Below, in pieces: positions 10,726 through 55,169 of a stretch of DNA of 64,000 nucleotides. The translations under genes were made by a program, and so were the position numbers. The stretch is from positions 2,243,501-2,307,500 of the forward strand of contig NZ_CP029639.1 in NCBI RefSeq assembly GCF_003268635.1, read 5' to 3'. Source of the stretch: Paenibacillus sp. DCT19. GTDB lineage: Bacteria; Bacillota; Bacilli; Paenibacillales; Paenibacillaceae. The number at the start of each line of letters is the position of its first letter. The first letter of the stretch is position 1. The notes under the pieces were generated by a model that worked only from the letters and a program-made list of their open reading frames with translations, was not told where the DNA came from and did not search any database.

Positions 10726-11703
10726 ATGACAGCAGTAAAAAAAATCGCAGTTTTAACGAGCGGTGGCGACTCACAAGGGATGAACGCGGCCGTTCGTGCG
10801 GTGGTTCGCAGCGGACTATTTCACGGTCTTGAGGTATATGGTGTGCAGCGTGGTTACCAAGGCCTTCTGAACAACGATATTTTCCCAATGGATCTCCGTA
10901 GTGTCGGTGATATCATCCAACGCGGGGGAACAGTTCTACAATCTGCGCGTTGTAAAGAGTTCTACACAGCTGAAGGTCAGGAAAAGGGAGCGGATATTCT
11001 TCGTGCTCGTGGCATCGACGGTTTGGTTGTTATCGGTGGAGACGGATCATACAATGGTGCCAACAAGCTGAGTAAGCTCGGCATCAACACAATGGGTCTT
11101 CCAGGAACGATTGACAACGACATCTCATTCACTGATTACACTATTGGCTTCGATACAGCAGTAAGTGTAGTTGTTGATGCAGTTAACAAATTGCGGGATA
11201 CGATGTCTTCCCATGAGCGTTCTTCTATTGTTGAGGTTATGGGTCGTCATTGCGGCGATATCGCTCTGCATGCAGGGCTTGCTTCTGGTGCGGAAACGAT
11301 TCTCGTTCCTGAAGTACCGTTTGACATGGATGAAGTAGCAGATCGGATGAAAGCTAACTTCGCTCATGGCAAACGCCACAGTATCATCATCGTTGCAGAG
11401 GGAGTAGGTAAAGGTGAGGATGTTGCAAAAGAATTAATGGAGCGTTGCCCTACGTATGAACCACGTGTAACGGTGCTGGGTCACATTCAACGTGGAGGTA
11501 CACCAACACCATTCGACCGTAACTTGGCAAGTCGATTGGGTGACTTCGCCGTTCGTAGCCTGATTGCAGGTGAGACGGATAAAGCTTGTGGTATTATCAA
11601 AGGTGAGCTTGTCCTCACTGATATTGATAAAGTTGTTAATACGAAAAAGATTTTGACGTGGAAACGTATGAACTGGCACAACGTTTGTCCCAGTAATAAA
11701 TAA
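10726..11703 (+). CDS. pfkA: 6-phosphofructokinase, C-terminus frameshifted
   Basis: ATP-dependent phosphofructokinase of glycolysis. GGDSQGMN (13-20), GGDGSYNGA near 104 and TIDND around 128-132 mark the ATP and fructose-6-phosphate sites. Bacillus PfkA is 319 residues. The frame as written runs into an unrelated tail after NTKK (ILTWKRMNW...). Adding one A to the run at 11644-11648 restores DFDVETYELAQRLSQ and a stop at 11694-11696, which is the normal PfkA C-terminus and gives 323 residues. The lesion is probably a sequencing error. The ATG follows AGAGGAGG. An intrinsic terminator lies just downstream. Confidence 0.95.
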   Translation: MTAVKKIAVLTSGGDSQGMNAAVRAVVRSGLFHGLEVYGVQRGYQGLLNNDIFPMDLRSVGDIIQRGGTVLQSARCKEFYTAEGQEKGADILRARGIDGLVVIGGDGSYNGANKLSKLGINTMGLPGTIDNDISFTDYTIGFDTAVSVVVDAVNKLRDTMSSHERSSIVEVMGRHCGDIALHAGLASGAETILVPEVPFDMDEVADRMKANFAHGKRHSIIIVAEGVGKGEDVAKELMERCPTYEPRVTVLGHIQRGGTPTPFDRNLASRLGDFAVRSLIAGETDKACGIIKGELVLTDIDKVVNTKKILTWKRMNWHNVCPSNK

Positions 11704-11711
11704 ATAACAAC

Positions 11712-11749
11712 AAAAGAGCACAGCCCTTATCGAGGGGCGTGCTCTTTTT
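11712..11749 (+). terminator. bidirectional terminator between pfkA and MATE gene
   Basis: AAAAGAGCAC pairs with GTGCTCTTTTT, with extra GCCC/GGGC pairing inside. A-rich and T-rich flanks allow it to serve both convergent genes. Confidence 0.85.
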
Positions 11750-11761
11750 GCGTTTGCACAC

Positions 11762-13117
11762 TTATGCTTCAGTGGCAGCTTTTCGCTGTACCAAGAACAA
11801 TCTCCAAAGCAGTGCTACTGCACCGACAGCCAGACCTGTAATCAATCCAATCCAGTAGCCAAATGCACCAAGTGACGTATAAGTAGCCGTAATATATCCA
11901 ACGGGCAGTCCAATGATCCAATAAGCTATAAACGTAATGATTAGAGCAGGGTTCACATCCTTATACCCTCGAAGCGCTCCCTGTGTCGGCGTAGCAATGG
12001 CATCTGATATTTGAAAGAAGATCGCATAGATCAAAAAGTGCTGTGTTAGTGCAATAACTTGCTGATCATTCGAATAAAGACCGGCAATCTGTTCGCCGAA
12101 CACAAGTAATACGACGGCGGTTAACAAGGACAGCACAATCGCGCCGCCAATGCCTAGAAGGCTATATTGTTTCGCGTCTTTCACTCGCCCTGCACCTGCT
12201 TCAAAGCCTACAAGGATCGTAAGAGCCATACAGATGCTTACAGGTAACATATAGAGCGTAGAAGCGAAGTTTAGGGCGGCCTGATGAGCAGCGATCGTAA
12301 TGGTATCGAAACGGCTCATTAATAACGTAACAGCTGCAAAAATGGAGGTTTCAAAAAAGGTAGCGAATCCGATAGGAATACCGATTTTGAGCAGTTCTTT
12401 CCACTTCCCAAGAGATATTCTAGACATTTGACGGAAGATACCATACTGAGCGAATGGCTCTACCCGATGCACAACGAAAAGGCTGATTAGAAAGATGAGC
12501 CAATAGGTAAAGGCTGTTGCTACCCCAGCACCTACACCGCCTAATTGAGGGAAGCCCCAACGTCCGAAAATAAGCAGATAGTTCAGTAGAATGTTCACAG
12601 GTAATGAGGTCAACGTAATTAACATGCTAATTCGCGTCTGTCCGAGAGCGTCCATAAAGCTACGGAGAACGGTATACCCGAATAAAGGCGTAATTCCAAA
12701 GGCGAGAGCACTCAAGAAGTAAAAAGCAACCTGAGCCACTCGTGGTTCCAACGGCATAGCATTTAAAATTGGCTTCAGCAGCAACGCACCTGCGGCAAGA
12801 ACGAATAAACTGACCGCAATACCAAGATACAAAGCCTGTATAACATTGTAACCGATCTGATCCTTACGTTTAGCACCGAGTAAATGGGAAACAACAGGTG
12901 TAATTCCGATTAGAATACCACTAAGGCCTGTCTGTACAGGCATCCACAGACTCGTACCAATGGCTACACCTGCTAGATCAGAAGGAGAAAATTTGCCTGA
13001 CATGTTGGTATCGAAGAATGACATGGCAGATAAAGCGATCTGTGTGGTGAAGATGGGTAGAAATATGATCAAAAATTGTTTTGCTTTCTGCGAAAAGCTT
13101 GTTGTGGTCATGTTCAC
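11762..13117 (-). CDS. MATE family efflux transporter (NorM-like)
   Basis: A 451-residue, twelve-span exporter. Two MatE repeats are visible: residues about 15-175 and 240-400. Each has the Gly/Pro-rich first helix and the conserved segment in helix 7 ([15 protein letters not shown]). Family members export cationic drugs in exchange for Na+ or H+. The start is GTG at 13117, nine bases after GAGG; an ATG two codons later is possible. It is convergent with pfkA and shares its terminator. The substrate is unknown. Confidence 0.9.
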
Positions 13118-13232
13118 GTGAAATGCCTCGCTATTCTCATAAAGTTATCATCATCGTGTTATTTCTGGACAGCTACTTATTGTAGATGATTTTATTGCGT
13201 TTGAACAGAGAAGAGCAGAGCGGCATGAAAAA

Positions 13233-13257
13233 CCCGCTTCGTCGAATACGGAGCGGG
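13233..13257 (-). terminator. terminator of the DUF4015 gene
   Basis: CCCGCTTCG pairs with CGGAGCGGG; read on the minus strand the stem is followed by TTTTTC. It separates the DUF4015 gene from the MATE gene. Confidence 0.75.
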
Positions 13258-13310
13258 CTGTATTTTATATTATTTATATAATGATTTAGAATAAGTGCCT
13301 TTCCAGATAT

Positions 13311-14492
13311 CTATTCGTAATTAACTCCTGGCGTATAACGATTGGATGCATTCCAGAGCAGATATTCATCCACATTCATGTCTTTCATGGCTTTGATCTG
13401 GTCTTCGACTTGTTTCTTCCCGTATTTCACGTAATGCCCACTGCCTAACCAGCTAGCCGTAAAATCTTGAATCCACGGCCGTATGATCGGTTTAAGCTCC
13501 TCGGTTGGATCCAGTTTCTTATGTGTGTCTTCCATGGATCCTTTGATCGTTGTGTAGGGGTCTTTATCTGGATCCTTCACACCATACCAGCCTGTAGAGT
13601 AATGACTAGGATACACCATGGGTGAGATGACATCTACATTCTCTGATATCTTCACAAAATCCTGTCCAATCCCTTCAGCAGCAGGGACAGATGCAGCATA
13701 TCCGAAAATATCGACAGATACTCTAACGCCTAATGGAGCAAGCTCCTTGCGAGCGTATTGCACGAATTCAGCTACAATATCAACCCGTGATTTGTCTGTT
13801 TTCGTATATTTTAACGTATCCGCGCGATTTTCAAAGCCTTCCGGGAACCGAACATAGTCAAATTGAATTTCCTTGAATCCAAGTTTGGCTGCTTCCTTGG
13901 CAATTGCAACATTGTAATCCCACACCTCTTTGCTGTAGGGGTTCACAAAGCTATCGCCCTTACTGTTAGCCCAGACGCTTCCGTCTTTGTTCTTGAATGA
14001 AAGTTCTGGATTCTTTTCGGCCAAAATCGTATCTTTGAAAACGACGACTCGCGCGATGGGATACACGTCATGTTTCTGTAGTCTTTTCATTAGTGCATCA
14101 ATATCCCGAATGAAGGGTTGGGATGTACCCATTTCAAGTAACGTTTTATTCTCTGTCGGGTATGTAATATATCCTAGATCGTCTTTGATATCGATGACCA
14201 TGGAATTTAACTCTGAATTGTCTATTAGCTGCAATAATTCCTTCATGCGTGCTCCACCAGCGCTATAGGCAGTGACATAGATACCTTTGACAATGGGTGC
14301 ATCGGGTTGAGGGTCGATTTTAACCGGAGGATTGTCTGCGTCGATTACCACTTGATCTTGTTGAGATTGAATAATTGCTGTATTGAAGTTATTCGTTATC
14401 GATGGAGATGCCTTTACTCCCTGATCTGACGTTACCGAAGAGCCGCTGAAGCTTCCCAAGGCCATGGCAAGTAAGGCCCAAAACATATTCAT
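13311..14492 (-). CDS. putative glycoside hydrolase (DUF4015), exported
   Basis: A 393-residue protein with a hydrophobic N-terminus (MNMFWALLAMALGSFSG) that looks like a short signal peptide or anchor, a linker of about 50 residues and then a TIM-barrel-like domain from about residue 67. Characteristic segments are VKGIYVTAYSAGG, SMVIDIKDDLGYI, EIQFDYVRFPE (with acidic residues at the expected strand ends) and SPMVYPSHY. This is the DUF4015/GHL family, predicted to act on extracellular or cell-wall polysaccharide; the substrate is unknown. The ATG follows GGAG. It is monocistronic with its own terminator. Confidence 0.8.
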   Translation of the reverse strand: MNMFWALLAMALGSFSGSSVTSDQGVKASPSITNNFNTAIIQSQQDQVVIDADNPPVKIDPQPDAPIVKGIYVTAYSAGGARMKELLQLIDNSELNSMVIDIKDDLGYITYPTENKTLLEMGTSQPFIRDIDALMKRLQKHDVYPIARVVVFKDTILAEKNPELSFKNKDGSVWANSKGDSFVNPYSKEVWDYNVAIAKEAAKLGFKEIQFDYVRFPEGFENRADTLKYTKTDKSRVDIVAEFVQYARKELAPLGVRVSVDIFGYAASVPAAEGIGQDFVKISENVDVISPMVYPSHYSTGWYGVKDPDKDPYTTIKGSMEDTHKKLDPTEELKPIIRPWIQDFTASWLGSGHYVKYGKKQVEDQIKAMKDMNVDEYLLWNASNRYTPGVNYE

Positions 14493-14597
14493 TGCATTCC
14501 ACTCCCTTTATGTGCTTCCGTATCTGTATTATACAGTGAACCCCTCCCGGATTTTAACCTTATTATCCAAGTGATGAAACATGTGTAAAAAATGAAA

Positions 14598-14636
14598 ACC
14601 GCTTCCTGATAGGGGATAACCCTCACAAGAAGCGGC
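14598..14636 (-). terminator. terminator of the small gene at 14653-14856
   Basis: CCGCTTC (14599-14605) pairs with GAAGCGG (14629-14635), with an inner AGGGG/CCCT stem. On the minus strand it ends in TTTTCATTTT. Confidence 0.7.
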
Positions 14637-14652
14637 ATGAACAATCTAAAAA

Positions 14653-14856
14653 TTATTGAATGTAAATATCGTTCTGATGCTCACAAATACTGTACTGAAT
14701 GATTTCTATTGCATCTCCCTGCTCCAAGATGCCCAGCCCATCTCGGAGAACAATCAGTGAGTCGAGCTCATTCGGTTTCAAGAAAGGGAGCATTTCCGGG
14801 CACCATTTGTTGACGATCTCAAACAGTTTTACCGTTTCCATATCCACAATAATCAC
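14653..14856 (-). CDS. small hypothetical protein
   Basis: A 67-residue acidic soluble protein with no recognised motif. The GTG start follows AGGAAAGG closely; an in-frame GTG three codons later or ATG five codons later gives METVKLFEIVNKW and is equally plausible. A strong terminator follows, which supports real transcription. It lies between YitT and the DUF4015 gene, all leftward. Confidence 0.55.
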   Translation of the reverse strand: MIIVDMETVKLFEIVNKWCPEMLPFLKPNELDSLIVLRDGLGILEQGDAIEIIQYSICEHQNDIYIQ

Positions 14857-15015
14857 CCTTTCCTACTCGAATTCCAAAATGGTAAGTCATTCGGCGCGAA
14901 TCGGAAAAGCAAAGTGCCTGTGAAATTGAAGGGCAGATCCTGCTATACATCATATTTAGGAGCCGTGCACGATTATTATACCACATTTATGATAATTGTT
15001 AACCGTACAGGTGTC

Positions 15016-15837
15016 TTAACTTCGACGGAAGGAACCCATAACGCCAACCGTTTCTACAATATTCACAAATGCTTTTGGATCGGTTTCTTTAATGATTCGT
15101 TTGATCTCAACCAGCTCATATCGAGTCGTTACAGTCATTAACATGTCCTTTTCGATATCGGTATATGCTCCTTGGGTTTTGATCTTCGTAACACCCCGTG
15201 GACGAACAAGCAATTTCTTCAGCATCGCTTCGGTTTCGTTCGTAATAATGTACAGTGTTACTTTGACATGGCTGATATGGATCAGATCCAGCACTTTACC
15301 CGTGATATAGATGGATACCATAGATGCCAGGGCAATTGTCCAGTTATCACTCAAGTAACCTGCGAGCATAATGATCGCTCCGTTCATACCCGCCATAACG
15401 GTACCGATGGGAAAGTCGCGGTTGCGTGTGAAAATGGAACCGACAATATCAAGCCCGCCAGTTGAACCACCCACTCGGAACGAAATGCCTGTGCCCAATC
15501 CAACAAGAATACCACCAAACACACAGCTAAGCAGTGGATCTGGCGACACAGCAAAAACAGGCAGCAAACCGATAAACCAGGAGGTCGCTGCTACAGATAC
15601 AATACTTAATATAATGAAACGTCGTCCAAGAATAAACCAACCTGCGATGAGCAAGGGAATGTTAAGAACAAAATACATTATACTAAGATTCAGGGTTGTG
15701 AAATAACCCAGAAGCATGGAAATACCGGATACCCCGCCGCTAAGCATTTGATGGGGAATTAAGAACCAGTTGAAGCCGCAGGCAATAGCTGCAGCACCCA
15801 AAATGATCACTAAAGAGTGCCAAATTATTTTGGGCAA
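15016..15837 (-). CDS. yitT: YitT family membrane protein
   Basis: A 273-residue protein with five or six membrane helices (YitT/DUF161 domain, about residues 1-195). The loops GFNWFLIPHQMLSGGVSGISML and GTGISFRVGGSTGGLDIVG are characteristic. It ends in a C-terminal cytoplasmic DUF2179 domain (about 200-273). I choose TTG at 15837 because AGGTGA lies six bases upstream and this gives the usual family length near 280; a longer frame reaches 15948. Function is unknown. It is divergent from the cshA gene. Several paralogues are normal in Paenibacillus, so the symbol denotes the family. Confidence 0.8.
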   Translation of the reverse strand: MPKIIWHSLVIILGAAAIACGFNWFLIPHQMLSGGVSGISMLLGYFTTLNLSIMYFVLNIPLLIAGWFILGRRFIILSIVSVAATSWFIGLLPVFAVSPDPLLSCVFGGILVGLGTGISFRVGGSTGGLDIVGSIFTRNRDFPIGTVMAGMNGAIIMLAGYLSDNWTIALASMVSIYITGKVLDLIHISHVKVTLYIITNETEAMLKKLLVRPRGVTKIKTQGAYTDIEKDMLMTVTTRYELVEIKRIIKETDPKAFVNIVETVGVMGSFRRS

Positions 15838-15953
15838 TTTAATCACCTCATTTATATTTAAAACCAGATTGCTGGTAATCTTGAATTGTTTTGTGATATA
15901 ATGATTTGTGGATATTCTTGAGTAGGAAACTTTTTCCAAATGTATCAATAAAA

Positions 15954-15969
15954 TTTGAAATGTTTCAAA
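15954..15969. promoter_or_regulatory. palindrome in the yitT/cshA divergent region
   Basis: TTTGAAA TG TTTCAAA is an inverted repeat with 7-base arms and a two-base centre. It looks like a dimeric repressor operator between two divergent genes. The regulator is unknown. Confidence 0.4.
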
Positions 15970-16140
15970 CGCATGTGTGTAGTTTTAGTCTTATGTTGGG
16001 GACCCATACACGAATTATAATGAATTGTGATAATAATTTGACGAGATGGGATACCCTATAAATATTAACGCTACTTAAGAATACAGACAACAAAGTGGAT
16101 TGTCCACCATGTCCACCATATAGAAGGAGTATGAATAATT

Positions 16141-19532: not shown

Positions 19533-19534
19533 AG

Positions 19535-20274: not shown

Positions 20275-20441
20275 AATAATGTTCCTCCTTATTAATTGGT
20301 GATCCGTGCCAAAATCCATTATAATCTTTTATGAAAGACATTGTCCAATGTGGACGTAGTTTATTACGATGGATCAGATGAAAGCCGATCTGACAGGGTG
20401 GAGTGAAAGTAGAGTCGTATGATATTTATTAGGTATGAAAA

Positions 20442-21044
20442 TTGGAAGAGTTATTTGAAGTTTTTCCTTTGACGTCAATGTTATTAGTTGCAAACGTAGT
20501 GATGTTCATTCTGTTGAGTTTAAACGGTGGTTCAACCAATCCTGTAACCTTGGTCGAGTGGGGGGCGTTAACGAACCTTCCAGTCTACTCGGAGGAGTGG
20601 TGGCGGTACTTTACGTCCATTTTCCTACACGCTGGATTCAGTCACCTGTTATTTAACAGTTTTGCTCTCGTTGTGTTTGCGCCTCCGATGGAGCGAATCC
20701 TCGGGTCAATCAGGTATGGTGTGTTGTACCTTGCCAGTGGTGTTCTGGGTAATGTACTTGCAATTGCTTGGTACAATTCAGTAGGACAAACAACCATATC
20801 CGTTGGCGCTTCTGGTGCGGTGTACGGTATTTATGGGGCGTTTCTGTATGTCGCGTTGTTTCAGCGAACGATCATGGATGAATCGTCGCGCAAAACGCTA
20901 TATACGCTGCTTGTATTCGGAATTATATTCTCGTTCGCGATGTCGGGGATTAACTGGATGGCTCACTTGGGTGGATTGTTAGGTGGATTCTTTATCTACG
21001 GACTTATCATTCGGTTATGGCGTCCGCGGATGTTGAAGAGGTAA
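20442..21044 (+). CDS. rhomboid family intramembrane serine protease
   Basis: A 200-residue six-span rhomboid. The catalytic Ser124 is in GASGAVYGIYG and the catalytic His175 in MAHLGG; the helix-2 histidines and Asn (HAGFSHLLFN, 63-72) are also present. Such proteases cut single-span membrane proteins within the bilayer. No extra N- or C-terminal domain is present, unlike Bacillus GluP, which carries TPRs. The TTG start has only a weak ribosome binding site (TTAGGT). The LysR gene follows at 21126 and may be cotranscribed. The substrate is unknown. Confidence 0.9.
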   Translation: MEELFEVFPLTSMLLVANVVMFILLSLNGGSTNPVTLVEWGALTNLPVYSEEWWRYFTSIFLHAGFSHLLFNSFALVVFAPPMERILGSIRYGVLYLASGVLGNVLAIAWYNSVGQTTISVGASGAVYGIYGAFLYVALFQRTIMDESSRKTLYTLLVFGIIFSFAMSGINWMAHLGGLLGGFFIYGLIIRLWRPRMLKR

Positions 21045-23211: not shown

Positions 23212-23563
23212 ATCCCCAATGATATTCACCTCGCTTGCAAGTTCAAATGTAGGGAATTGTAGATTCCACCTGCGGCTTAATACAGTTCGCCCAGTTTTTC
23301 TTACTAATAGATATGATACATGATCTTTAACCATACAGTCAAACGTTATGCTTTGAAGATGAGAGGTGTATCGGTCTATATCTATGTGCTCATGCCCCAT
23401 GATTATGTACTTAAGTGCAAGAAAAAGACGTATGACTTTATTCCCAGAAATAATTTTCAATTTTGTTGAAAATACTCTTGTCAACTTTCCTGTCTTCTGC
23501 TTATAATGACATTAAGAGTTTCACGATGTGTGAAGAAACTTAACATGTGAGGGAGTGGGGTTC
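23212..23563. promoter_or_regulatory. divergent region with amt promoter
   Basis: TTGTCA (23478-23483), an 18-base spacer and TATAAT (23502-23507) form the likely amt promoter. No TnrA or GlnR site (TGTNAN7TNACA) was found by eye. The rest of the stretch, toward the MerR gene, shows no gene. Confidence 0.6.
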
Positions 23564-24965
23564 ATGAGAAAGAAATGGTTGGTTTCGGTGTTAGTAATGC
23601 TTACTTTATTGGCTTTTCCGGTCAGCGCATTCGCTGCTGCTGAGGGGCCGACTAATATCGAGCTTCAAAGTGGTTTGAACTCAGCCTTTACGTTCTTGGC
23701 TGTTGTGTTGGTGTTCTTGATGCAAGGGGGATTTGCTCTACTTGAAGCAGGCTCAACACGAATGAAAAACGCAGGACATATTGCGGGTAAAACGATCCTG
23801 ACGTTAGGAATCTCAGTAATTGCGTTCTGGGCACTAGGTTTCGGCCTTGGCTTCGGTAACGGTAACGCCTTCTTCGGAACAACAGGATTTTTCCTGAGTG
23901 GGGACAAAATGGCTGCTTCCTTCGAGTCATTGGCATTCTCGGATGTTCCACTGACCGTTAAATTTGTATTCCATCTTGCTTTTGCTGCGGTATCATTAGC
24001 CATTGCTTGCGGTGGTATGGCTGAACGCGCAAAGATGAGCGTATATATCGTTTTCGGTACTCTTTATACTATTATAATGTATCCTGTTGTTGCTCACTGG
24101 GTATGGGGCGGCGGCTGGCTCGCAGAGCTGGGTATGCAAGACTTTGCAGGTTCGACAGTCGTTCACTTAACGGGTGCGACAGCAGCATTGGTTGCTACAA
24201 TCTTGTTGAAACCTCGTATCGGTAAATATAACAAAGACGGCAAACCTAACATTATTCCAGGTCACAACCAAGTGTATTCTGTACTCGGGTTATCATCCTC
24301 TGGATTGGTTGGTTTGGTTTCAATCCAGGTAGTACATTAACAGCTCTGGATGATGGATTCTTCGGTTATGTTGCTTTGACTACAAACGTAGCTGCGGCTG
24401 CTGGTGGTGTAGCTGCACTCTTGATCTCTTGGGCAGTTCTTGGTAAATCCGATATTCCTAGTATGTTGAACGGTGTGCTTGCGGCACTCGTTGCAATCAC
24501 TGGTGCTTGTGCTTTCGTTGAGCCTTGGGCAGCTTTGGTAATCGGTGCTTTGGCAGGTATTATCACATTCTTCACAGCTCAATACTTCGATCGTAAAGGT
24601 ATTGACGATCCAATCTATGCTTTCTCTGTTCACGGTGTTGCTGGTATGTGGGAGCGATCTCTACAGGATTGTTTGCTACACCAGAGCTTGCTGAGCATGC
24701 GGGTGTAGGTCAAGCGGGTCTGTTCTATGGTGGCGGATTCCACCAATTGGGTGTACAGCTTCTCGGTCTTGTAGGCGCATTTGCCTTCGTACTTGTTGTA
24801 TCCTTCATTATCCTGGGCGGTATGAAAGCTATTATGGGTATCCGTGTTACGGAAGAAGAAGAAACAATGGGTCTGGATATGAGTGAGCATGGTACTTACG
24901 GGTATCCTGAGCAAATGAAACATGCGGAAAGCAAATCCAACGGAGGCGGTACGTTCAGCTCCTAA
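23564..24965 (+). pseudogene. amt: ammonium transporter Amt, two frameshifts (probably sequencing errors)
   Basis: An Amt/MEP/Rh ammonium channel. A cleavable signal peptide (residues 1-27, ending FPVSAFAAA) is followed by eleven membrane helices. Two single-base losses split it. Restoring one G at 24287-24289 yields VLGVIILWIGWFGFNPGS, the conserved signature. Restoring one G at 24650-24652 yields VAGMWGAISTGLFATP. The repaired protein is 467 residues. Both lesions are GGGG read as GGG, so the gene is probably intact. The ATG follows GAGGGAGTGGGG. No glnK lies beside it; a DUF294 gene follows instead. Confidence 0.9.
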
Positions 24966-25003
24966 GTTGAAGATTGCTGAATCATGCTTCAAGGAGGCCG
25001 GAC

Positions 25004-26091
25004 ATGATGGAACCCATCCCGTTTATCAACCATTCCTGGTCCTATACGGAAATAGATGTTGCAGCATCTGTTGAAGAATTACGCCAGGCACGTATCGTAT
25101 TACAGAATGAGCTCCAGGAATTGTTGTCCGCTTCCTTGTCGAAGGTTGAATGGTACCAAACGGTAAATGAGCTGCATGACCGGATTGCTCGGAAGGCAGT
25201 AGAGTTGTGCATCCAGGGGATGGTAGAGGAAGGCTTCGGCCAACCTCCCGTCCCCTATGCCTTTATCGTTTTTGGTAGTTCAGGCAGGGAAGAGTCAACA
25301 TTATGGAGTGATCAGGACAATGGCATGATCATTAGTGACATGCCGCATGAGGAAAAAGAATCCTATTATGCTGAGCTCGGTCAGCGGATTACAGATGTGT
25401 TAGAAGAGCTTGGTTATGCCAAATGTGAAGGTAAGGTCATGTGTTCTGAGCCGTTATGGAGGAAGACGCTTGAAGCTTGGAAGCAGCAGTTGCTGGAATG
25501 GCGTTCAGATCTAGCGTGGGAGCCAGTTCGTAATCTCATAATTGCCTCAGATATGCGCTTTATTACAGGGATCATCAACTTGCGGAAGAATGGATTGCTG
25601 AATTTTACGAAGGGTTCAGGCAGGTTCCTGAACTGTCCGATGCTGTTCTACGCAACACGGTTAAACATAAAGCTACATTGAATATTCTTGGGCAAGTGGT
25701 CACAGAGCGTTTTGGTGAACATGCTGGAGGATTTGATGTGAAATATGGTTTATACATTCCTCTAGTAAATAGCGCAAGATTTTTGGCATTACAGCATGGC
25801 ATCAAAGAAACCTCCACACTCAAGCGAATAGAGCGATTAGTTTCGCTAGAGGCTGTACCGCTTACCTTACTGGATGCAGCTGGCAGAGCTTTTGTATCCG
25901 CACTTGAATTTCGGCGGAATACGCCGGTTGTGCTCAAAAATGATTTACAGCACAGCAGTGGATTTTTGGATGAGAAACAAATGAAGCAAAAGCAAGTGCA
26001 TTATGAACTGAGGAATACATTAGGGCTGGTACGTCGTGTGCACCGAGCACTGCAACGACAGCTGCGTTTCGCGGAGAGGAGACGTCCATGA
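25004..26091 (+). pseudogene. DUF294 putative nucleotidyltransferase, one frameshift (probably sequencing error)
   Basis: A protein of the DUF294 type, related to the GlnD uridylyltransferase catalytic domain. It has an N-terminal helical region, then the nucleotidyltransferase motif FGSSGREES with DQD (about residues 89-104), and a DUF294_C substrate-binding-like domain to the end. Adding one G at 25568-25570 joins the halves (FITGDHQLAEEWIAEFYEGF) into 362 residues. No CBS domains are present. The ATG follows AAGGAGG. It begins 39 bases after amt and overlaps the exonuclease gene by four bases (ATGA). Its link to amt suggests a role in nitrogen signalling, which is inference. Confidence 0.85.
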
Positions 26092-28193: not shown

Positions 28194-29812
28194 TTAATGA
28201 TTATTTAGCCCAAGTGCAGCAATCGAAACGATGCTAGGCTCGTCCTGAATGTTTTCCTGAAGTAACGCGTAGCGGAAACTATGCACGAGTGCTTCCCAGC
28301 TCGCTTCAATGACATTCTCGGATACACCAACCGTATTCCATGTGTTTTCCGTATTTTTGGATTCAATTAGAACGCGTACTTTGGCTGCTGTAGCATCTTT
28401 CTCATCCAGAACACGCACTTTATAGTCAGAAAGGTGCATGTTGCCGAGGGAAGGGAAATATTGTACAAGCGCTTTACGAACAGCATTATCGAGTGCGTTG
28501 ACAGGACCATTACCTTCAGCAGCGGTGTACACACTGTTCCCGCCCACATTCAGTTTAACAAAAGCTTCGGAAACAACGGGTTTTCCAGCTGTTTTCTCTA
28601 CAAGCATTTTGAAAGACTCGAAGGTGAATAGTTCTTTCATGTCTCCATTTGCCTCACGAATCAATAGTTCGAGTGAAGCATCCGCACCTTCAAACTGGTA
28701 GCCTTGGTGCTCCAGATCTTTGATTTTCTCTATAATCTGACGAGAATTCTCGCTACTAGGGTCGAACTCAAGCCCAAGCTCTTGAGCCTTGGACACAATG
28801 TTACTTTGTCCAGCGAGTTCAGAGACAAGCACACGCTGTTTGTTACCCACAAGTTCTGGCACGATATGTTCATACGTACGGGAATCACGCAAGATGGCGG
28901 AGACGTGAATTCCACCTTTGTGAGCAAATGCAGCATTACCAACATAAGGTTGGTTAATTGGCATGTTCACATTCGCGATCTCACTCACGTAGCGGGCTAC
29001 GTTGGTCAGTTGTTTCATCGAATCTTCAGACACGCACTCATAGCCAAGCTTCAATTGTAGGTTAGGGATAATAGAAGCCAGGTTGGCGTTACCACAGCGT
29101 TCTCCGTATCCATTCATTGTACCCTGTACTTGTCTTGCCCCGGCTTGTACAGCACTTAATGTGTTGGCAACCGCCAGTTCACAGTCGTTGTGCGTATGAA
29201 TACCAAGCTGAGCGAGGGGCAGTCCGCGGTATAGCGTTGAAACAATCTCATGCACCTCGTGGGCATCGTTCCACCGTTGGTGTCACACATAACCAGCCAG
29301 TCCGCTCCGGCTTCATGTGCTTTGGTTAACACCGCTTGTGCATATTCGGGATTATGTTTGAAGCCGTCGAAGAAGTGCTCAGCATCAAAAATGACTTCCA
29401 TTCCGTTTTGTTTAAGATAGGCGATAGAGTCATAGATCATGGACAGGTTTTCTTCCAAAGTCGTTTGCAGTGCAGTGTGCACATGGAAGTCCCATGACTT
29501 CCCAACGAGTGTCGCTGCATGAGCACCTGATTCAAGGATTCGTTGTAAGTTTGCGTCCCCACTGGCGACAGAGCCTTTCCGACGTGTACTGCCAAATGCA
29601 ACCACCTTGGCGTTCAAGTTCAATTCCTTGACTCTTTTGAAAAATTCAATGTCCTTGGTGTTGCTGCCCGGAATTCCGCCTTCAATATAATGAGCACCCA
29701 GGTCATCGAGCTTTTTGGCAATCTTAAGCTTGTCATCTGCCGATAAGCTGACACCCTCCCCTTGTGTGCCGTCACGTAAAGTCGTATCGAAGATGGAAAT
29801 GGCCTTTGACAT
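28194..29812 (-). pseudogene. cimA: (R)-citramalate synthase, one frameshift (probably sequencing error)
   Basis: A member of the 2-isopropylmalate synthase superfamily of the CimA type, which condenses pyruvate and acetyl-CoA to citramalate for threonine-independent isoleucine synthesis. FDTTLRDGTQGEGVSLS (8-24) and GIHTHNDCELAVAN carry the metal and catalytic residues, and a C-terminal LeuA-dimer regulatory domain is present. The two halves join when one base is restored at GGG 29261-29263 (coding strand CCC to CCCC): TNGGTMPHEVHEIVSTLYRG. The repaired length is 539 residues. The ATG has AAAGGAGG. A long leader with hairpins precedes it. Confidence 0.92.
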
Positions 29813-37834: not shown

Positions 37835-39496
37835 ATGAGTGGAATTATGGCTGTACAGCTACCTTTGAAATTTACTGAGCGAATGAAAACGTTGCTTGGC
37901 AATGAATTTGAACAATTTATGTCATCATATGATCAGTCCCCACATGCGGGGCTTAGAGTGAATACGTTAAAAATATCCATGAAGTCTTTCGAGCAGCTTG
38001 CTCCATTCAACTTGCGTCCCATTCCTTGGTGTGGGACAGGTTTTTATGTGCCTCACGGGGTGAAGCCGGGATTGCATCCGTATTATCATGCGGGTCTGTA
38101 TTACATTCAAGAACCAAGTGCGATGGCACCTGTTGAATTATTAGGTGTGCAGCCAGGAGACCGAGTGCTGGATCTGTGTGCTGCGCCAGGTGGGAAATCT
38201 ACCCAGATTGCAGCCAAACTGCAAGGTAAGGGTGTGCTTGTGACCAATGATATTCATGCTGAACGAACGAAGGCGCTTGCCAAGAACGTGGAATTGTACG
38301 GGGTTCGAAATGCAGTTGTGTTGAACGAATCTCCAGAGCGCATTGCGGGTGCGTTTGAGCATTATTTTGATAAGGTCTTGATTGATGCACCATGTTCAGG
38401 GGAAGGCATGTTCCGCAAGGATGAGGATATGGTGAAATCATGGGAGGATCATTCCATTGATAAGTGTGTTCTGATGCAACGAGATATTCTAGAGACGGCT
38501 GCAAGACTGTTAGCTTCAGGCGGCACCATCGTTTATTCAACATGCACATTTGCACCTGAAGAAAATGAAGCGATGATTGCAGAGTTTCTGAAGCTGAATC
38601 CTGATTTTGTTGTGAAAGACATCCCTAGGGAAACAGGTTTTCAGCCAGGTAGACCCGATTGGGTGCGTCAAACTATGCCAGAAACAGCGCAGGAGACTGC
38701 ATTGGTATTGGATCAAGTGGCTGGAACAGCGAGATTATGGCCCCATTTGTTAGAAGGGGAAGGTCATTATGTGGCAGTACTGCAGCATCGGAGTCAATCC
38801 TCAGCTGGACAAGTTATGTTGGATAGAGAGGCGCACGATACTGCGGAGGGAGCGGTAGAAGAGAGCGCGCAAGTCGATTATGAGCGCGATTCAGAGCAAG
38901 AGCGTTTCGTTGCAGCGTCCGTACCGCTCAGCAAGGCCGATCGTAAACGAGAGCGTCTACTGAGAACAGAGGCAAGGGAGAACAAGCCTAGGCAGGACTA
39001 CGAGGGCAAATCGAAGGGGAAACAGGTGAAAGGGAACGAACGTGGCGGACGCAAGGCCGATCGGCGTGGACAAGGTCGTGGAACGGAGCAAGTGGAACCG
39101 GAGGTCATCTACAAGCAGTTTGTACAAGATCATCTGGAGATAGAGCTTCCCGGAGAAACGGTGTATTACGGTGATCGTGTATATCAATCCGCAGTAGGTG
39201 CTGAACGTCTGGAAGGACTTAAAGTCATCCGTCCTGGATGGTTCATGGGAACCGTGAAAAATGGGCGATTTGTGCCATCTCATCCGTTAGCATGTGCGTT
39301 GCAGGGTACAGAGGCAGTACGAGTGATCAACCTTAACTCTGCAAATGGTGAAGCGGTGAGGTATCTAAAAGGAGAGACCTTAAATATAGAGGAATCTCGG
39401 GTGCAGCTTAAGGCGGGAGCAGTTGCCAAGGGTTACGCTTTAGTGTGTGTTGATGGTTATGCCGCTGGATGGGGAAATGGCTGGATGGTGTGCTGA
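37835..39496 (+). CDS. rsmF: RsmF/NOL1-NOP2-Sun family rRNA cytosine-C5 methyltransferase
   Basis: A 553-residue SAM-dependent m5C methyltransferase. LDLCAAPGGKST (from 112) is the SAM loop, Cys187 in DAPCSGEGMF and Cys237 in YSTCTF are the two catalytic cysteines, and a C-terminal RsmF_B/PUA-like domain covers roughly 430-553. Between about 330 and 430 there is a highly charged, Lys/Arg/Glu-rich, apparently disordered insert (KADRKRERLLRTEAREN...). The start is the ATG at 37835 or the one four codons later; neither has a strong ribosome binding site. The pseudouridine synthase gene follows 37 bases later, so this may be an rRNA modification operon. Confidence 0.9.
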   Translation: MSGIMAVQLPLKFTERMKTLLGNEFEQFMSSYDQSPHAGLRVNTLKISMKSFEQLAPFNLRPIPWCGTGFYVPHGVKPGLHPYYHAGLYYIQEPSAMAPVELLGVQPGDRVLDLCAAPGGKSTQIAAKLQGKGVLVTNDIHAERTKALAKNVELYGVRNAVVLNESPERIAGAFEHYFDKVLIDAPCSGEGMFRKDEDMVKSWEDHSIDKCVLMQRDILETAARLLASGGTIVYSTCTFAPEENEAMIAEFLKLNPDFVVKDIPRETGFQPGRPDWVRQTMPETAQETALVLDQVAGTARLWPHLLEGEGHYVAVLQHRSQSSAGQVMLDREAHDTAEGAVEESAQVDYERDSEQERFVAASVPLSKADRKRERLLRTEARENKPRQDYEGKSKGKQVKGNERGGRKADRRGQGRGTEQVEPEVIYKQFVQDHLEIELPGETVYYGDRVYQSAVGAERLEGLKVIRPGWFMGTVKNGRFVPSHPLACALQGTEAVRVINLNSANGEAVRYLKGETLNIEESRVQLKAGAVAKGYALVCVDGYAAGWGNGWMVC

Positions 39497-40281: not shown

Positions 40282-40575
40282 CTCCCGCCCTTCGCGGAGC
40301 GGAGCAGGGAGCCCCGGGCAAGGGGCGAAGCCTTACCCCTAGCGCCAAAGGCGCAAAAGCTCCCGCCCTTCGCGGAGCGGAGCAGGGAGCCCCGGGCAAG
40401 GGGCGAAGCCTTGCCCCTAGCGCCAAAGGCGCAAAAGCTCCCGCCCTTCGGGAAGCGGAGCAGGGAGCTCCGGGCAAGGAGCGAAGCCTTGCCCCAGCGC
40501 CAAAGGCGCAAAAGCTCCCGCCCTTCGGGAAGCGGAGCAGAGAGCCCCGGGTTAGGGGCGAAGCCTTGCCCGAAA
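40282..40575. repeat. GC-rich tandem repeat, 78-bp unit, nearly four copies
   Basis: Copies begin at 40282, 40360, 40438 and 40515, i.e. periods of 78, 78 and 77 bases. Each starts CTCCCGCCCTTCG and contains GGAGCGGAGCAGGGAGC, GGGCAAGGGGCGAAGCC and the hairpin GCGCC-AAA-GGCGC. The third copy lacks one T and later copies carry small substitutions; the fourth is truncated. Composition differs sharply from the neighbouring genes. The open frames on the minus strand are by-products of the repeat. Confidence 0.9.
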
Positions 40576-48980: not shown

Positions 48981-48999
48981 ATGTTTACAGTAAGTTGTA

Positions 49000-49470
49000 T
49001 TATATTTTTCCAATCATTTTATTATACATAAACTGCCCAGTTACCCGGCGGGCTGTGACATAACGGTCTTTGAAGTAAGGGTTGGACAATTTGGTGATGC
49101 TAACCCCTTTGCTGCTTGAAGCATGTGCGAATTTGCCGTCACCGATATAAACGCCTGTGTGTGAAACGCCATTGCCCATTGTGTTGAAGAAAACAAGATC
49201 TCCTGTGCGAAGGTTCGCTTTGGATACTGGTGTTCCTGCTTTGGCTTGCTGCTGGGAAGTGCGAGGTAAATTGATACTATATTTATCAAAGAGATATCTC
49301 ATGAATCCAGAACAATCGAAGCCGGCCATGGTTGTACCGCCCCATTTGTACGGAATGCCTGTCATGTTATTAACAACTGTATTGATTGTGCTTGCCTCTG
49401 TACTTGTTGCACCTGAAGTAAATAGTACTGCTGCTCCAAAAATGGAGATGATAAGTTTTTTCAAAATCAA
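49000..49470 (-). CDS. secreted NlpC/P60 peptidoglycan endopeptidase (C40)
   Basis: A 156-residue exported cell-wall hydrolase. A signal peptide (1-28, ending TEAS) is followed directly by a minimal NlpC/P60 domain. The catalytic Cys53 is in FDCSGFMRYLF, the His104 in SHTGVYIGDG, and a third polar residue is His116. It cuts the gamma-D-Glu/diaminopimelate bond in peptidoglycan stems. No LysM or SH3 binding module is present. The TTG start follows GAAGGGAG. It is monocistronic. Confidence 0.9.
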   Translation of the reverse strand: MILKKLIISIFGAAVLFTSGATSTEASTINTVVNNMTGIPYKWGGTTMAGFDCSGFMRYLFDKYSINLPRTSQQQAKAGTPVSKANLRTGDLVFFNTMGNGVSHTGVYIGDGKFAHASSSKGVSITKLSNPYFKDRYVTARRVTGQFMYNKMIGKI

Positions 49471-50045
49471 TGTTCTCCCTTCGTTGCCTACGGAGTTAGC
49501 TAAGGGTTCGGTAGAAGGTTCCCTATATTTCCTATGTATAAGAATAATTCACCCAAAATGGTTCCCCCGTTTTCAAACATGAAACTCGGCAATTGAATAA
49601 TTAAGTTTTTGTAACCTTTTGAAACTATATTGCATATATGCGTAAATGTCAAACCCTTCTTAATACCTTCTTTATCGCCCAATGTTAACGGAACTATCGA
49701 TTTTTATGAAGAAGAAACACGAAATAAAGATGCAACTGATTACAAAAAAGTAATATGTGTTTCAAATCCAAACAGGGTTGTATATCATTCGAACTTTGTC
49801 ATGTGCAGTTTGAACTATTCTCATAGATACAATAATCGAGGAATGTTACAAGATGTTGCATTAATTGACAAAGATATTTTTTTTGCATAAGATCGTTCTA
49901 TCCAATCCACATATTGGATAAAAATATAGTAGTTATATTTTAATTCAAATTAAGGTGGTGGTGGATGGTCGTGTAATTAGAAGGAAAGTAGTAAGTAGAA
50001 TGATGGAAAATGAATGATTCTAATAAAAGGGAGTGTGTTATCATT
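49471..50045. other. AT-rich intergenic region upstream of the pectate lyase
   Basis: 575 bases without a supported gene. The right part carries the pectate lyase promoter and an inverted repeat (given separately). Short open frames exist but lack ribosome binding sites and homology that I can recognise. Confidence 0.6.
49865..49920 (+). promoter_or_regulatory. pectate lyase promoter with palindrome at the transcript start
   Basis: A perfect -35 TTGACA (49865-49870), a 17-base spacer and TAAGAT (49888-49893) predict a start near 49900. Exactly there lies the inverted repeat TATCCAAT-CCACAT-ATTGGATA (49899-49920). It could be a repressor operator over +1 or a 5' stabilising hairpin in the mRNA. 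Confidence 0.65.
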
Positions 50046-51002
50046 TTGAGTACAAAAACAAAGTTAGTCACATTAGTTTTGGCATTTTCGATGGTATTTT
50101 CTGCGGTAGGTATGGTAATCCAACCCGTTAACACTGTATCTGCTGCTGATGCTTCAGGAACGACAGCAAGTATATCTGATATCTTGAAGAACCAACAAGC
50201 GGACGGTGGCTGGAGAAAAGAATATAAGCAAACAACGGGTGAGTGGGCGAAATCTACAATCGATAATAAAGCTACATACTCAGAAATTAGAAGATTAGCC
50301 AAAGAGTTTAAAAAGACAAACGACCCACGTTATTCTGCTGCGGCGATTAAAGGCATTAACTTTTTGCTGAATATGCAGTATTCCAATGGTGGATGGCCTC
50401 AAGTTTATCAAAGTTCCGGTTATCATAAACATATCACTTATAATGACGATGCAATGATAAATGTAATGTACATGCTGGATGAAGTAGCGACACGCAAAGG
50501 TGACTTCTCGTTTATCGACAGCAATCTCGCCAATCGTAGTAAAAATGCGGTTGCTAAAGGTGTAGATGCTATTTTGAACACTCAGGTGGTTTCAGGTGGC
50601 AAGCTGACAGCGTGGGGACAACAACATGATTCCAGCACACTCAAGCCTGCAGGTGCAAGAATCTATGAAGTGCCATCATTAACTGCTGGAGAGAGTGTAA
50701 CAATTGTTAAATTCCTGAAAACGAGACCTTCCAACGCCAAAATTACTGCATCCATCAAGGGAGCAGAAGCTTGGTTTAACAAGGTGAAAATTACAGGTTA
50801 CAGGTATGAGAGAGCTAATGGGGACAGCAAAATCATTGCTGACTCCAAAGCTGCACCGATCTGGGCTCGTTTCTATGAAGTCGGAACGGATAAACCGATC
50901 TTTATCGGTCGTGACGGTATCGTAAAATATAAATTAAGCGATATTGACAAAGAAAGAAGAGGCGGTTATGCATGGTATGGCAACTGGCCATCCAAGCTGT
51001 AA
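50046..51002 (+). CDS. pelA: secreted pectate lyase, polysaccharide lyase family 10
   Basis: A 318-residue exported enzyme that cleaves polygalacturonate by beta-elimination. A signal peptide of about 33 residues (ending NTVSAADA) precedes an all-helical PL10 domain. The family repeats QQADGGWRKEY and MQYSNGGWPQVY are clear, as are TYNDDAM and the catalytic-region segment GARIYEVPSLT. No CBM is attached. The TTG at 50046 gives a typical signal peptide; an ATG at 50010 would add 12 polar residues. The leader is about 145 bases. A strong terminator follows. Confidence 0.9.
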   Translation: MSTKTKLVTLVLAFSMVFSAVGMVIQPVNTVSAADASGTTASISDILKNQQADGGWRKEYKQTTGEWAKSTIDNKATYSEIRRLAKEFKKTNDPRYSAAAIKGINFLLNMQYSNGGWPQVYQSSGYHKHITYNDDAMINVMYMLDEVATRKGDFSFIDSNLANRSKNAVAKGVDAILNTQVVSGGKLTAWGQQHDSSTLKPAGARIYEVPSLTAGESVTIVKFLKTRPSNAKITASIKGAEAWFNKVKITGYRYERANGDSKIIADSKAAPIWARFYEVGTDKPIFIGRDGIVKYKLSDIDKERRGGYAWYGNWPSKL

Positions 51003-51054
51003 CTTGCTTTAACTTCTAAACGGGCACGAATTAGTGCTGAGATCCCAATCACGA

Positions 51055-51092
51055 GAAGCCCGATCCGGAATGGAATATCTGGATCGGGCTTC
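51055..51092 (+). terminator. pectate lyase terminator
   Basis: GAAGCCCGATCC pairs perfectly with GGATCGGGCTTC and is followed by TTTAT. Confidence 0.85.
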
Positions 51093-51180
51093 TTTATGAG
51101 CATTTCATGTTGACATGTAAGTGCTTGCGTGATATATTATTTTTTGTCGCCGAGATACATAGTCACGGAGATCATCATAT

Positions 51181-51264
<84 letters not shown>

Positions 51265-51270
51265 TCAAAT

Positions 51271-51315
51271 AAAAAGGTTCCCTGTTAGACATTCGTCTAG
51301 CGGGGAACCTTTTTA
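51271..51315 (+). terminator. tRNA-Leu terminator
   Basis: AAAAAGGTTCCC.GTTAGAC pairs with GTCTAGC.GGGAACCTTTTT; works in both directions, so it may also end the leftward xylanase transcript. Confidence 0.9.
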
Positions 51316-51442
51316 TATTTTTTATTTACGGACTGATATGCGGATCTCACAGCTTGTCCATCCATGCTATCGCGTACTACAACAATCGATCAAAATGGAG
51401 GATTGGGCAATTTTTTGCCACATAAGTTGATCCAAACCCGTA

Positions 51443-53119
51443 TTATGATGCCGTAACTGTAATATTATCGATATTTGGCCCCTCGGTGCCTGTCGTTACG
51501 ATTTTTATGGTATTCGAGCCTGAATTCATGGGTACCTGAATGGTTTTCTCACCCCACGTAGACCAGCTTCCCGTTGCTGAAAAGGGTGTATTGCTGATCA
51601 CTTTTGTGCCGTTTACGAACACATCAAGGTTACGTGTACCACTCTCTAACGCATAACGAAACTTTACGTTTTTGGTGCCACTTGTAGCATTGTTGATGTT
51701 ACTCCATTCAATGGCAGAATTCGTCAATGCGTTGAAATTAACATAGCCAGAGCCTGTGTAACCAGGGTAGATTGTTTCAATTAGAGCATCAGTTAACGTA
51801 GTTCCCGTTTCAGCTTCATACGTTGTGCCACTTGTGTTACCACTACCTGATCCGGTGATATCCGCTACAAATGTGGTTACACTTTGGGCAGGAAGCTGTG
51901 CAGTAAATGCACCATTAGACACATTGATCGGTGCTCCGCTAGCCAGGTTACGGCTGCTATCCGTTACCCATGAGGATACAGTAGACGCGTTACCATTTTG
52001 CAGGACAAATCGCTGACTGGTCGCAGAGGTTCCTTTGTTAATCGCTACAACGACGACCTTGTTATCTCCTTTGTAAGCAGATACAAACGTATTGGTATCG
52101 GGGTTTTTCGTTGCATCCACTCGCAGATAGCCTGGACGTACAAATTTGGAGAAATGAGCCATATTATAACCGCGTTTGCTAATCGTGCCATCCTCTTTCA
52201 TCGGTCCGTACTGTCTACGGATGTACCACCATACATATGCTTGAAAATCTGCCTCTACCATTGCATTGTGCATGTGATGGGAGACTTCCAAAGCTTCCGG
52301 CCAGCGGTCAGCAGAATTGTTATCACTGTTTGGATAATAGACTTCCGTCATCCACAGTTCTTTGCCGGCACCTTTTTGCTTGAAGAGAGGGTATGCAAAA
52401 TTATTGACTTGAGTACCATATAAATGCGCTCCTAAAATGTCCATATTAGCAAGCGCTTGTGGATCATTCAGGATTGGGTCAGATATGTTTTTTAGGTATT
52501 GAAAGGACTCTGGAGCCATGACTTTGGTGTTCTGGATCGATCCTGCATTTTCTTTCATGAAACGAAGGATCTCCTGTGGTGTCCACCAGGTCCAATCATG
52601 CGCGTAATCCGGTTCATTTTGTACCGAGATCGCATACAGGTTGACACCGTTATCTCTCATGTACGTAACAAAGTCATTCAGATGCTGAGCGTACGCAGCA
52701 TATTTGTCATATCTAAGACGTTTAGCATTGGTGTCGCCATTCCGGTTGAACGTCTCGACCATATCACTTGGCGGATTCCAAGGAGAGGCAAATACTAGAG
52801 CGCCTTGCTCTATTGCTCTTTTGGCGGTATCTATTTCTCTCGACCAATTACTTCGATTCGGATCGACACTGATCCTCAGAATGGAGAAGCCCAATTGATT
52901 TTGCCCGTTGCCAAAGGCTGTGTCACGTTGAGCAGGTGTCAAGTCACCGATCCAAACCGGGTGATTAATTCCTCCAAAGCCCTTGATGAGCTGCTTCTCC
53001 GAGGATAAATTGATGGTGGCATCACTTGCTGCTGAAGCTTGTGTGGGCGTTAACATCAGTGGCAGAGCCGTTAAACAGGCGAGTAAAACGTTAAAGGTCT
53101 TTTTTAGTTTAAATTTCAC
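51443..53119 (-). CDS. xynC: secreted glucuronoxylan endo-xylanase, GH30 with CBM6-like module
   Basis: A 558-residue exported enzyme. Signal peptide 1-32 (ending ASAAS), GH30 subfamily 8 catalytic barrel plus side beta-domain (about 33-422), a Ser/Gly/Thr linker, then a C-terminal CBM6-like beta-sandwich (about 433-558). Acid/base Glu169 is in SVQNEPDY and nucleophile Glu259 in WMTEVYY. Such enzymes cut xylan next to methylglucuronic acid branches. I choose GTG at 53119 because GAGGAGG lies nine bases upstream; the ATG nine bases earlier touches that site. A CcpA-like palindrome and a promoter operator lie upstream. Confidence 0.93.
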   Translation of the reverse strand: MKFKLKKTFNVLLACLTALPLMLTPTQASAASDATINLSSEKQLIKGFGGINHPVWIGDLTPAQRDTAFGNGQNQLGFSILRISVDPNRSNWSREIDTAKRAIEQGALVFASPWNPPSDMVETFNRNGDTNAKRLRYDKYAAYAQHLNDFVTYMRDNGVNLYAISVQNEPDYAHDWTWWTPQEILRFMKENAGSIQNTKVMAPESFQYLKNISDPILNDPQALANMDILGAHLYGTQVNNFAYPLFKQKGAGKELWMTEVYYPNSDNNSADRWPEALEVSHHMHNAMVEADFQAYVWWYIRRQYGPMKEDGTISKRGYNMAHFSKFVRPGYLRVDATKNPDTNTFVSAYKGDNKVVVVAINKGTSATSQRFVLQNGNASTVSSWVTDSSRNLASGAPINVSNGAFTAQLPAQSVTTFVADITGSGSGNTSGTTYEAETGTTLTDALIETIYPGYTGSGYVNFNALTNSAIEWSNINNATSGTKNVKFRYALESGTRNLDVFVNGTKVISNTPFSATGSWSTWGEKTIQVPMNSGSNTIKIVTTGTEGPNIDNITVTAS

Positions 53120-53192
53120 TGCGATCATCCTCCTCGAAATGGTTATTCTGAGAACTGCTAAATCAATGAAATAGTACTTTAATAGACTACGA

Positions 53193-53206
53193 TGTAAGCC
53201 CTTACA
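53193..53206. promoter_or_regulatory. cre-like palindrome in the xynC leader
   Basis: TGTAAG-CC-CTTACA matches the catabolite-responsive consensus TGTAANCGNTNACA except that the central CG is CC. It lies between the promoter and the start of xynC, where CcpA would block elongation. Confidence 0.5.
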
Positions 53207-53269
53207 CAACCTCCTTTCGAAAATAAAAGGAAAGAAAATCAATTTATTCTTTCTTTTGTTTATTTTAAT

Positions 53270-53307
53270 AAAATATTGTTGAACTGAATACCTGACAAAT
53301 TTCAGGT
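53270..53307 (-). promoter_or_regulatory. xynC promoter overlapped by an inverted repeat
   Basis: On the minus strand, TTGTCA (53293-53298), a 17-base spacer and TATTTT (53270-53275) form the promoter. The inverted repeat ACCTGA-CAAATT-TCAGGT (53290-53307) covers the -35 element, as expected for a repressor operator. The repressor is unknown. Confidence 0.6.
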
Positions 53308-53520
53308 CTTTTACTAATTTATCTCATTTTAACGAGAAACCATGACATTTTTATCCTAAATTCAGAATCTCATACGACAAGTAAATTACTTAAGAGATGT
53401 ATTCCTGTGTTGGTGCCTTTTGGATATACAAATTTTCCTTTAGGCTCGTCAGCCCATTTCTTACATAGAACACCCTACAATATCAAACAATGAGAACACA
53501 GATCTAAGGAGGGAATCAGC

Positions 53521-54420
53521 ATGGAAAACCAAACAAAAAGCAAGAGATACACACGAATAGCGGGGTTCCTTATTCTTTTGCTACTTATTAATGTGGTGAG
53601 TCTGACAGGTGGAGGGATAACCGCAGCATCTGAGATGAAAAGAGAAGTTGGCAAGGTGAATACTCAAACACAGTCGAACCAGGATACTCAACCCGCTGTC
53701 GGTCCTAATCGTATGGCCATCATTATAGACGATGTTGGTAACGATATGAAGGGAACCGCAGAGATTTTGGAGATGCCCATTAAGTTGACGGTTGCGGTAA
53801 TGCCTTTTCTGCCAACAACTCAAAAGGATGCCATTGCCGCACATGAGAAAGGGATGGATGTGATCGTACACATGCCAATGGAGCCCAAGAAAGGCAGACC
53901 AGAGTGGCTTGGCCCAGGAGCGATTACGTCCAACTTGACAGATGAAGAAGTTCGCGTACGCGTGGAAAAAGCGATTGATGATGTCCCGTACGCCATTGGC
54001 ATGAACAATCATATGGGCTCTAAGATTACTTCAGACAAACGGATTATGTCGATTGTGCTGGATGTATGCCGGGAGCGGGGACTTTTTTTTGTAGATAGCA
54101 GAACCAATTTTCGCTCGGTTGTCGGGGAGATAGCCACGTCCAAAAATATGCCTCCGATCGGTAATGACATCTTCTTAGACGACCAGAACTCTAAGCCGCA
54201 TATCCGCAAGCAAATGGAACTGGCCGCTAAGCATGCCATGGACAAGAAAAGCTGTGTAGTTATCGGCCATGTTGGTCACACCGGGTTAAATACATCATCT
54301 GTTATTCGTGAATCAGTCGCGCATCTTAAGGGACAGATCGAATTCGTTGGCGTTGGTGATCTGGTGCGGGAGGTGTGGGATTGGCATACTGCTCCTACAC
54401 TACCGACAGATAATAAATAA
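53521..54420 (+). CDS. divergent polysaccharide deacetylase family protein (DUF610/YibQ type)
   Basis: A 299-residue exported protein. A signal anchor (about 12-35) is followed by a linker and an NodB-like barrel from about residue 64: MAIIIDDVGND, TVAVMPFLPTT, GMDVIVHMPMEP, MNNHMGSKITSD and CVVIGHVGHTG. Acidic and His positions resemble those of metal-dependent deacetylases, though divergent members may lack activity. The ATG has AAGGAGG. It is convergent with the CwlD-type amidase gene; after frame repair of the latter the two overlap by 26 bases, so no separate terminator exists. Confidence 0.85.
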   Translation: MENQTKSKRYTRIAGFLILLLLINVVSLTGGGITAASEMKREVGKVNTQTQSNQDTQPAVGPNRMAIIIDDVGNDMKGTAEILEMPIKLTVAVMPFLPTTQKDAIAAHEKGMDVIVHMPMEPKKGRPEWLGPGAITSNLTDEEVRVRVEKAIDDVPYAIGMNNHMGSKITSDKRIMSIVLDVCRERGLFFVDSRTNFRSVVGEIATSKNMPPIGNDIFLDDQNSKPHIRKQMELAAKHAMDKKSCVVIGHVGHTGLNTSSVIRESVAHLKGQIEFVGVGDLVREVWDWHTAPTLPTDNK

Positions 54421-55169
54421 TGCCATTTGCGATGGACTCGGCTATGCGCTTTTGCTCGGCTGGATCAGTAATTTTGGCTCGGTCTGCCGCATTACTCAAA
54501 AATCCGGTTTCTACAATGACTGCTGGATGCTTCACATAATTCAACAAATAAAAGGGTTTACCCACACCACTTCCCGTTTAGTTCCATACAAGTCATTCAT
54601 GGCATTTTGGATCGATTGTGCTAGAAGGTAACTTCTACCTTCCTTTTGGTGCAAAACCACCGGGCCATGGGAAGTGGACTTTGCACTCCAATTGGCATGA
54701 ATACTTACAACAATATCTGTACTCACTTCTTCGCTAAGGCTTTTGCGTTGTGCTAAATCTCTGCGATGCCGGGATCGGCTGTTAAGCCAGCGATTATCAT
54801 CACTGAGCGCGTAATCACCAAGTCGATTGATGATGACTGCGTATCCCTTACTCCGCAAGAGAAGATAAACTTTTTGACTTATAGCCAGGTTAATGTCCTT
54901 CTCCAGCACGCCTTGGGCTGTCGTTCCTCCATCAATTCCCCCGTGACCTACATCAAGTAGAATTACGGGTGCTGCAAAGGCGTGATGGCTGGAACGATAA
55001 GCTTCACCGTCGATTATTGGTAACATGGACGGACTGTTCGTTGAGGGGCTTGCTTGAAATGACTCAACAGATCTAACTTGATGGGGGTCTGTCCCTGAGC
55101 AAGTGGAAGAACCGGAAGATATAACAAGCTACCTAACAATGCGGTCGAAGCAAGCAGTACCTTATACAT
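54395..55169 (-). pseudogene. cwlD: N-acetylmuramoyl-L-alanine amidase (CwlD type), two frameshifts (probably sequencing errors)
   Basis: An Amidase_3 enzyme. The signal peptide starts at ATG 55169 (behind AAGGAG): MYKVLLASTALLG... up to LAQG. The domain carries VILLDVGHGGIDGG, the metal Glu in VLEKDINLAI and SIHAN. Two C3 runs on the plus strand (55093-55095 and 54562-54564) each need one more base. The first repair fuses leader to domain (LAQGTDPHQVRSVESF), the second restores VVWGKPFYLLNYVKHPAVIVETGFLSNAAD with the catalytic Glu. The repaired protein has 258 residues. CwlD makes muramic lactam in spore cortex together with PdaA. Confidence 0.88.

Follow-up and report, generated by a model that had tools for sequence, protein, structure and literature searches.

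The broken genes in the Paenibacillus assembly G000, a single contig of 6,667,063 bases (6.67 Mb), are almost certainly errors of the deposited sequence rather than true damage in the bacterium, as judged by comparison with its relatives. We hold with high confidence that the one-base losses found in them arose in the assembly consensus, where homopolymers, chiefly of G/C, would have been under-called with a chance climbing steeply with length. The initial annotation of one stretch of this DNA had preferred a systematic basecalling or consensus error to decay, and this preference is borne out by the pattern of losses, which is genome-wide, mostly -1, biased towards G/C runs, dependent on run length and blind to coding status. 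We infer that the cause lay in base calling or consensus of an insufficiently polished long-read assembly, and the artefact is of an already known kind.

One-base losses in the window

The window, as we term the whole stretch of 64,000 nucleotides that was analysed (G000:C1:2243501-2307500), has Paenibacillus sp. Root52 and P. tundrae DS1314, which by sequence match are G034 and G064, respectively, as its closest named relatives. It contains nine -1 losses across seven genes:

10726..11703, + strand: pfkA, with an A run (11644-11648) that is longer by one base in relatives, and residues past 308 altered
20419..21044, + strand: rhomboid-family gene, its start inferred via alignment with the 208-aa gene of G035, with a C run (20466-20467) that has one base more in both G035 and G034
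23555..24965, + strand: amt, in three frames, with two runs (24287-24289 and 24650-24652) each one base shorter than in relatives
24974..26091, + strand: DUF294 nucleotidyltransferase gene, split over two frames, with a base missing at 25568-25570
28194..29812, - strand: cimA, in two frames, one base short at 29261-29263
37835..39496, + strand: RsmF-type rRNA methyltransferase gene, with an A run (39475-39477), close to the 3′ end, that has one base more in relatives
54397..55167 (outer limits approximate), - strand: cwlD, with losses at 54561-54563 and 55083-55087

Seven lesions had initially been listed in five of these genes (pfkA, amt, the DUF294 gene, cimA and cwlD), and all five are indeed one base short in comparison with G035 and G034, the deficit at the first amt site being visible against G035. 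The list lacked the losses at 20466 and 39475, and its seventh site was misplaced: the GGG at 55093-55095 of cwlD is likewise present in the three closest relatives (L191-L193), and the gap sits a few bases away, in 55083-55087. The other cwlD lesion, placed at 54562-54564, is a real loss, although the run occupies 54561-54563; a four-G motif is found there in 19/19 loci, even though a plain length tally yields +1 in 12 and -1 in seven, owing to an adjacent gap. The pfkA site, both amt sites and the DUF294 site are one base short against 19 of 19 same-genus loci, and the cimA site against all 25 aligned loci (26 given).

The claim that these genes would appear dead or split holds for amt, the DUF294 gene and cimA, which are broken, with consecutive pieces of amt and of cimA matching their family profiles in differing frames. 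In contrast, pfkA is altered in its tail only: of 323 residues the first 308 agree with its relative, and the gene retains a 325-aa frame and does not clearly look dead. Among 79 named loci, a single open frame extends over at least 93% of the gene in 68/72 cases for amt, 64/79 for DUF294 and 71/73 for cimA, the remaining loci being either in distant species, as single pieces, or on two contigs that are short (L070, L085). The breaks of the window in these three genes occur in none of the 79. Related strains with the same lesions, which would have spoken against a sequence error, were found nowhere among the relatives compared.

Six of the seven lesions had also been described as G4 or C4 runs read as three. 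This is firm at 24650 and 54561, where the longer run is present throughout the relatives displayed, but too strong at 24287 and 29261, where some relatives carry a different base at the third codon position, and at 25568, where the three closest relatives have GGAG. Our reading of 24287 and 29261 is that a substitution in G000 may have been followed by shortening of the run.

A metagenomic CimA (P0052, on a 3,009-base contig) is 307 aa long, which is the length of the shortened protein of the window, and 93% identical, a point against a sequence error; the closest full-length CimA proteins are 94-96% identical among the best 120 of 8,000 scored in a protein search. At positions 40312-40545 of the window, repeat units of about 78 bases vary in copy number among relatives, appearing as clustered indels.

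Frameshift excess across the genome

Genes of G035 with at least 150 aa and at least 80% identity were checked for frameshifts in G000 in three sampled regions: A, the 320 kb in which the window lies; B, from 5.0 to 5.2 Mb; and C, from 1 to 160 kb. Only interior and uncompensated events were kept, and an event was dropped if it lay no more than 30 columns from the low end of the gene or 45 from its high end, or if local identity was below 75%; this filter reduced the counts in A and B from 43/206 and 20/124, in which gene-end differences are still included, to 33 and 15. The use of G000 as the reference for frameshift counting was discarded, as its own broken frames inflated the count. The identical filter was applied as a control to G034 versus G035 in regions A and B.

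Frameshifted genes amounted to 33/206 in A, 15/124 in B and 11/94 in C, or 59 of the 424 genes in total. They contain 71 events, of which 62 are -1, five +1 and two +2, with one -26 and one +8; the 62 losses lie in 486,735 coding bases, or one per approximately 7.9 kb. The control yielded 1/119 and 2/79 (total 3/198), so that in A and B together 48/330 G035 genes are frameshifted in G000, as opposed to 3/198 in G034. Identity is 88-95% per aligned block between G000 and G035 and 96.2% between G034 and G035; the control pair is therefore less diverged, about two-fold, and somewhat understates natural indels, but a two-fold gap in divergence would not account for a nine-fold excess of frameshifts. 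The shortened runs are absent from the assemblies of the other relatives compared, with the exception of G054 (Paenibacillus sp. OVF10), which has defects of its own.

Ordinary lineage-specific decay of five unrelated genes would agree with the lack of these lesions in the relatives compared. We nevertheless consider it extremely improbable, as the window does not stand out from the genome in its frequency of losses, the genes are conserved on either side of each break, and decay would leave unexplained both the genome-wide excess and the dependence on run length described below. If the proportion of 59/424 holds throughout the genome, annotation would present some 800 genes as broken or split, taking the gene number to be about 5,800, as in P. 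tundrae MLY93, a PacBio-only assembly (PMC11556098). Pathway calls, counts of pseudogenes and statistics of the pan-genome drawn from G000 would then mislead, and conclusions of the kind that the citramalate pathway is missing or that the strain is a mutator would be at risk.

Run length, base and coding status

When every loss is assigned, as one base gone, to the run that it touches, G/C runs account for 47 of the 62 losses, with inferred lengths of three (3), four (17), five (15), six (10) and seven (2) bases, and 15 fall outside them. Taking intact runs from all aligned G035 genes and losses from the filtered genes, shortened coding G/C runs number 3/5,535 at length three, 17/1,072 at four, 15/166 at five, 10/20 at six and 2/3 at seven, and the corresponding numbers for coding A/T runs are 3/2,820 at four, 0/855 at five, 3/226 at six and 2/73 at seven. 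Counting shortened against intact G4 runs had been proposed initially as a check, and this tally shows that within the sampled regions few four-base runs are short and longer runs fare worse; because the error grows with run length, the narrower description of G4 read as three needs revision. In G/C runs of at least four bases, coding and non-coding, there are 39 losses versus two gains. In the G034 control, 0/383 coding G/C runs with a length from four to six bases are shortened, versus 23/602 in G000.

Runs conserved in G035 are shortened in 14/702 (four), 8/94 (five) and 3/10 (six) cases, and runs created by substitution in G000 in 3/370, 7/72 and 7/10 cases, respectively; for four- and five-base runs the length curve is similar in both. 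Counted more strictly, with matched flanks required, the numbers are 9/515 (four), 10/81 (five) and 4/6 (six) for coding G/C runs, and 2/216, 8/46 and 6/8 for non-coding ones, defined as those not within any ORF of 100 aa or more, a definition that takes in rRNA and possibly small genes. The frequency of loss is about equal inside and outside genes (Fisher p = 0.52 at four, 0.43 at five and 1.0 at six, on small numbers). The 16S genes of two sampled operons show no such loss, which, like the 15 losses lying outside G/C runs, speaks against a consensus error; 23S was in part unaligned. Over whole genomes, G6 runs number 218 in G000, and 353 in G035, 346 in G034, 321 in G064, 402 in G002 and 460 in G072, while six-base G/C runs per Mb in the samples (32 in G000, 71 in G035 and 46 in G034) give a less clear picture.

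Breaks at homopolymer runs might also be expected in expressed genes with programmed frameshifting or transcriptional slippage; yet the frames of relatives are unbroken at those places and the defect is present outside genes as well, leaving this explanation a vanishingly small probability. It is also very doubtful that a modified guanine in the DNA of the strain disturbed base calling at G runs, in which case the artefact would mark an uncharacterised DNA modification. A flanking motif was sought at the affected runs, and no clear or strong one was seen (p = 0.92, 0.37, 0.72 and 0.04 at four positions, uncorrected). As regards the consensus error that we favour, identical-base runs, chiefly of G or C, would be called one base too short, the chance of a miscall rising steeply with run length, from about 2% of four-base to half of six-base G/C runs, and the shortened runs would then introduce frameshifts into coding sequence irrespective of gene function.

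Affected core genes and comparable assemblies

The genes that carry a -1 loss number 54. NCBIfam names were assigned to ten of these, chosen for their familiar look, and Pfam names to eight proteins; among the ten are ObgE, glutamate racemase, MurA, FolC, Lgt, HPr kinase, Tgt, ferrochelatase, GalE and RicT. Nine of them, in addition to obg, are commonly regarded as essential, the number of copies having been checked for obg alone; a literature search for an essential-gene list gave none. The genome has one obg match above the cut-off, and its pieces, in differing frames, flank two losses that are 59 bases from each other. Obg is termed essential for bacterial growth (PMC3056739). The mutL gene (G000:C1:2890070-2892018; L184, L185) was matched as two pieces in differing frames and is one base short at a G run in comparison with G034, while mutS gave an uninterrupted single match (1-830 of 840). 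The break in mutL belongs to the same class as the other losses, and could pass for a mutator genotype.

The state of mutL raises the question of whether the losses are true mutations of a mismatch-repair-deficient strain, in which homopolymer slippage would have gone unrepaired and many genes would have been lost. Homopolymer indels that scale with run length are indeed typical of such strains (PMC5854121). However, the mutS-deficient Vibrio lines described there show either a slight deletion bias or insertions slightly ahead, as against the 39 losses and two gains counted here. Moreover, the losses are not depleted within genes, the sole obg copy above the cut-off is broken twice, mutS is in one piece, and the mutL loss does not differ in class from the rest. 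Since the gains and the sparing of essential genes expected of a mutator are contradicted, and the expected deficit of losses within genes is not seen, we regard a mutator as very unlikely, and return to consensus error as the preferred explanation.

Errors of this kind have been described elsewhere. For Clostridium autoethanogenum, whose closed genome was built from PacBio data only, about 240 under-called homopolymers in 4.35 Mb are reported on Illumina and Sanger evidence (PMC4687164). That genome resembles G000 in being a closed single contig with scattered one-base losses in short homopolymers and vital genes that seem frameshifted; G000 differs in that its losses are denser, as estimated from the coding bases sampled, strongly G/C-biased and known from sequence comparison alone. 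Work on MinION assemblies with Kastor (PMC12007338) describes gene-fragmenting deletions at homopolymers, most of them after four to five equal bases; the ties to homopolymers and the detection by means of reference genes are shared with G000, the platform of which may differ.

The count of G6 runs provides a cheap screen, and it flagged a second assembly, G054, which by sequence is Paenibacillus sp. OVF10 (CP094668.1; L068), with just 75 such runs. At a 20 kb locus of OVF10, 7/14 genes are frameshifted, whereas ten other loci have 0-3 frameshifted genes among their 11-19. OVF10 therefore shares with G000 both the depletion of G6 runs and the frameshifted genes, the effect being stronger in OVF10, and it looks like a second assembly with the same defect.
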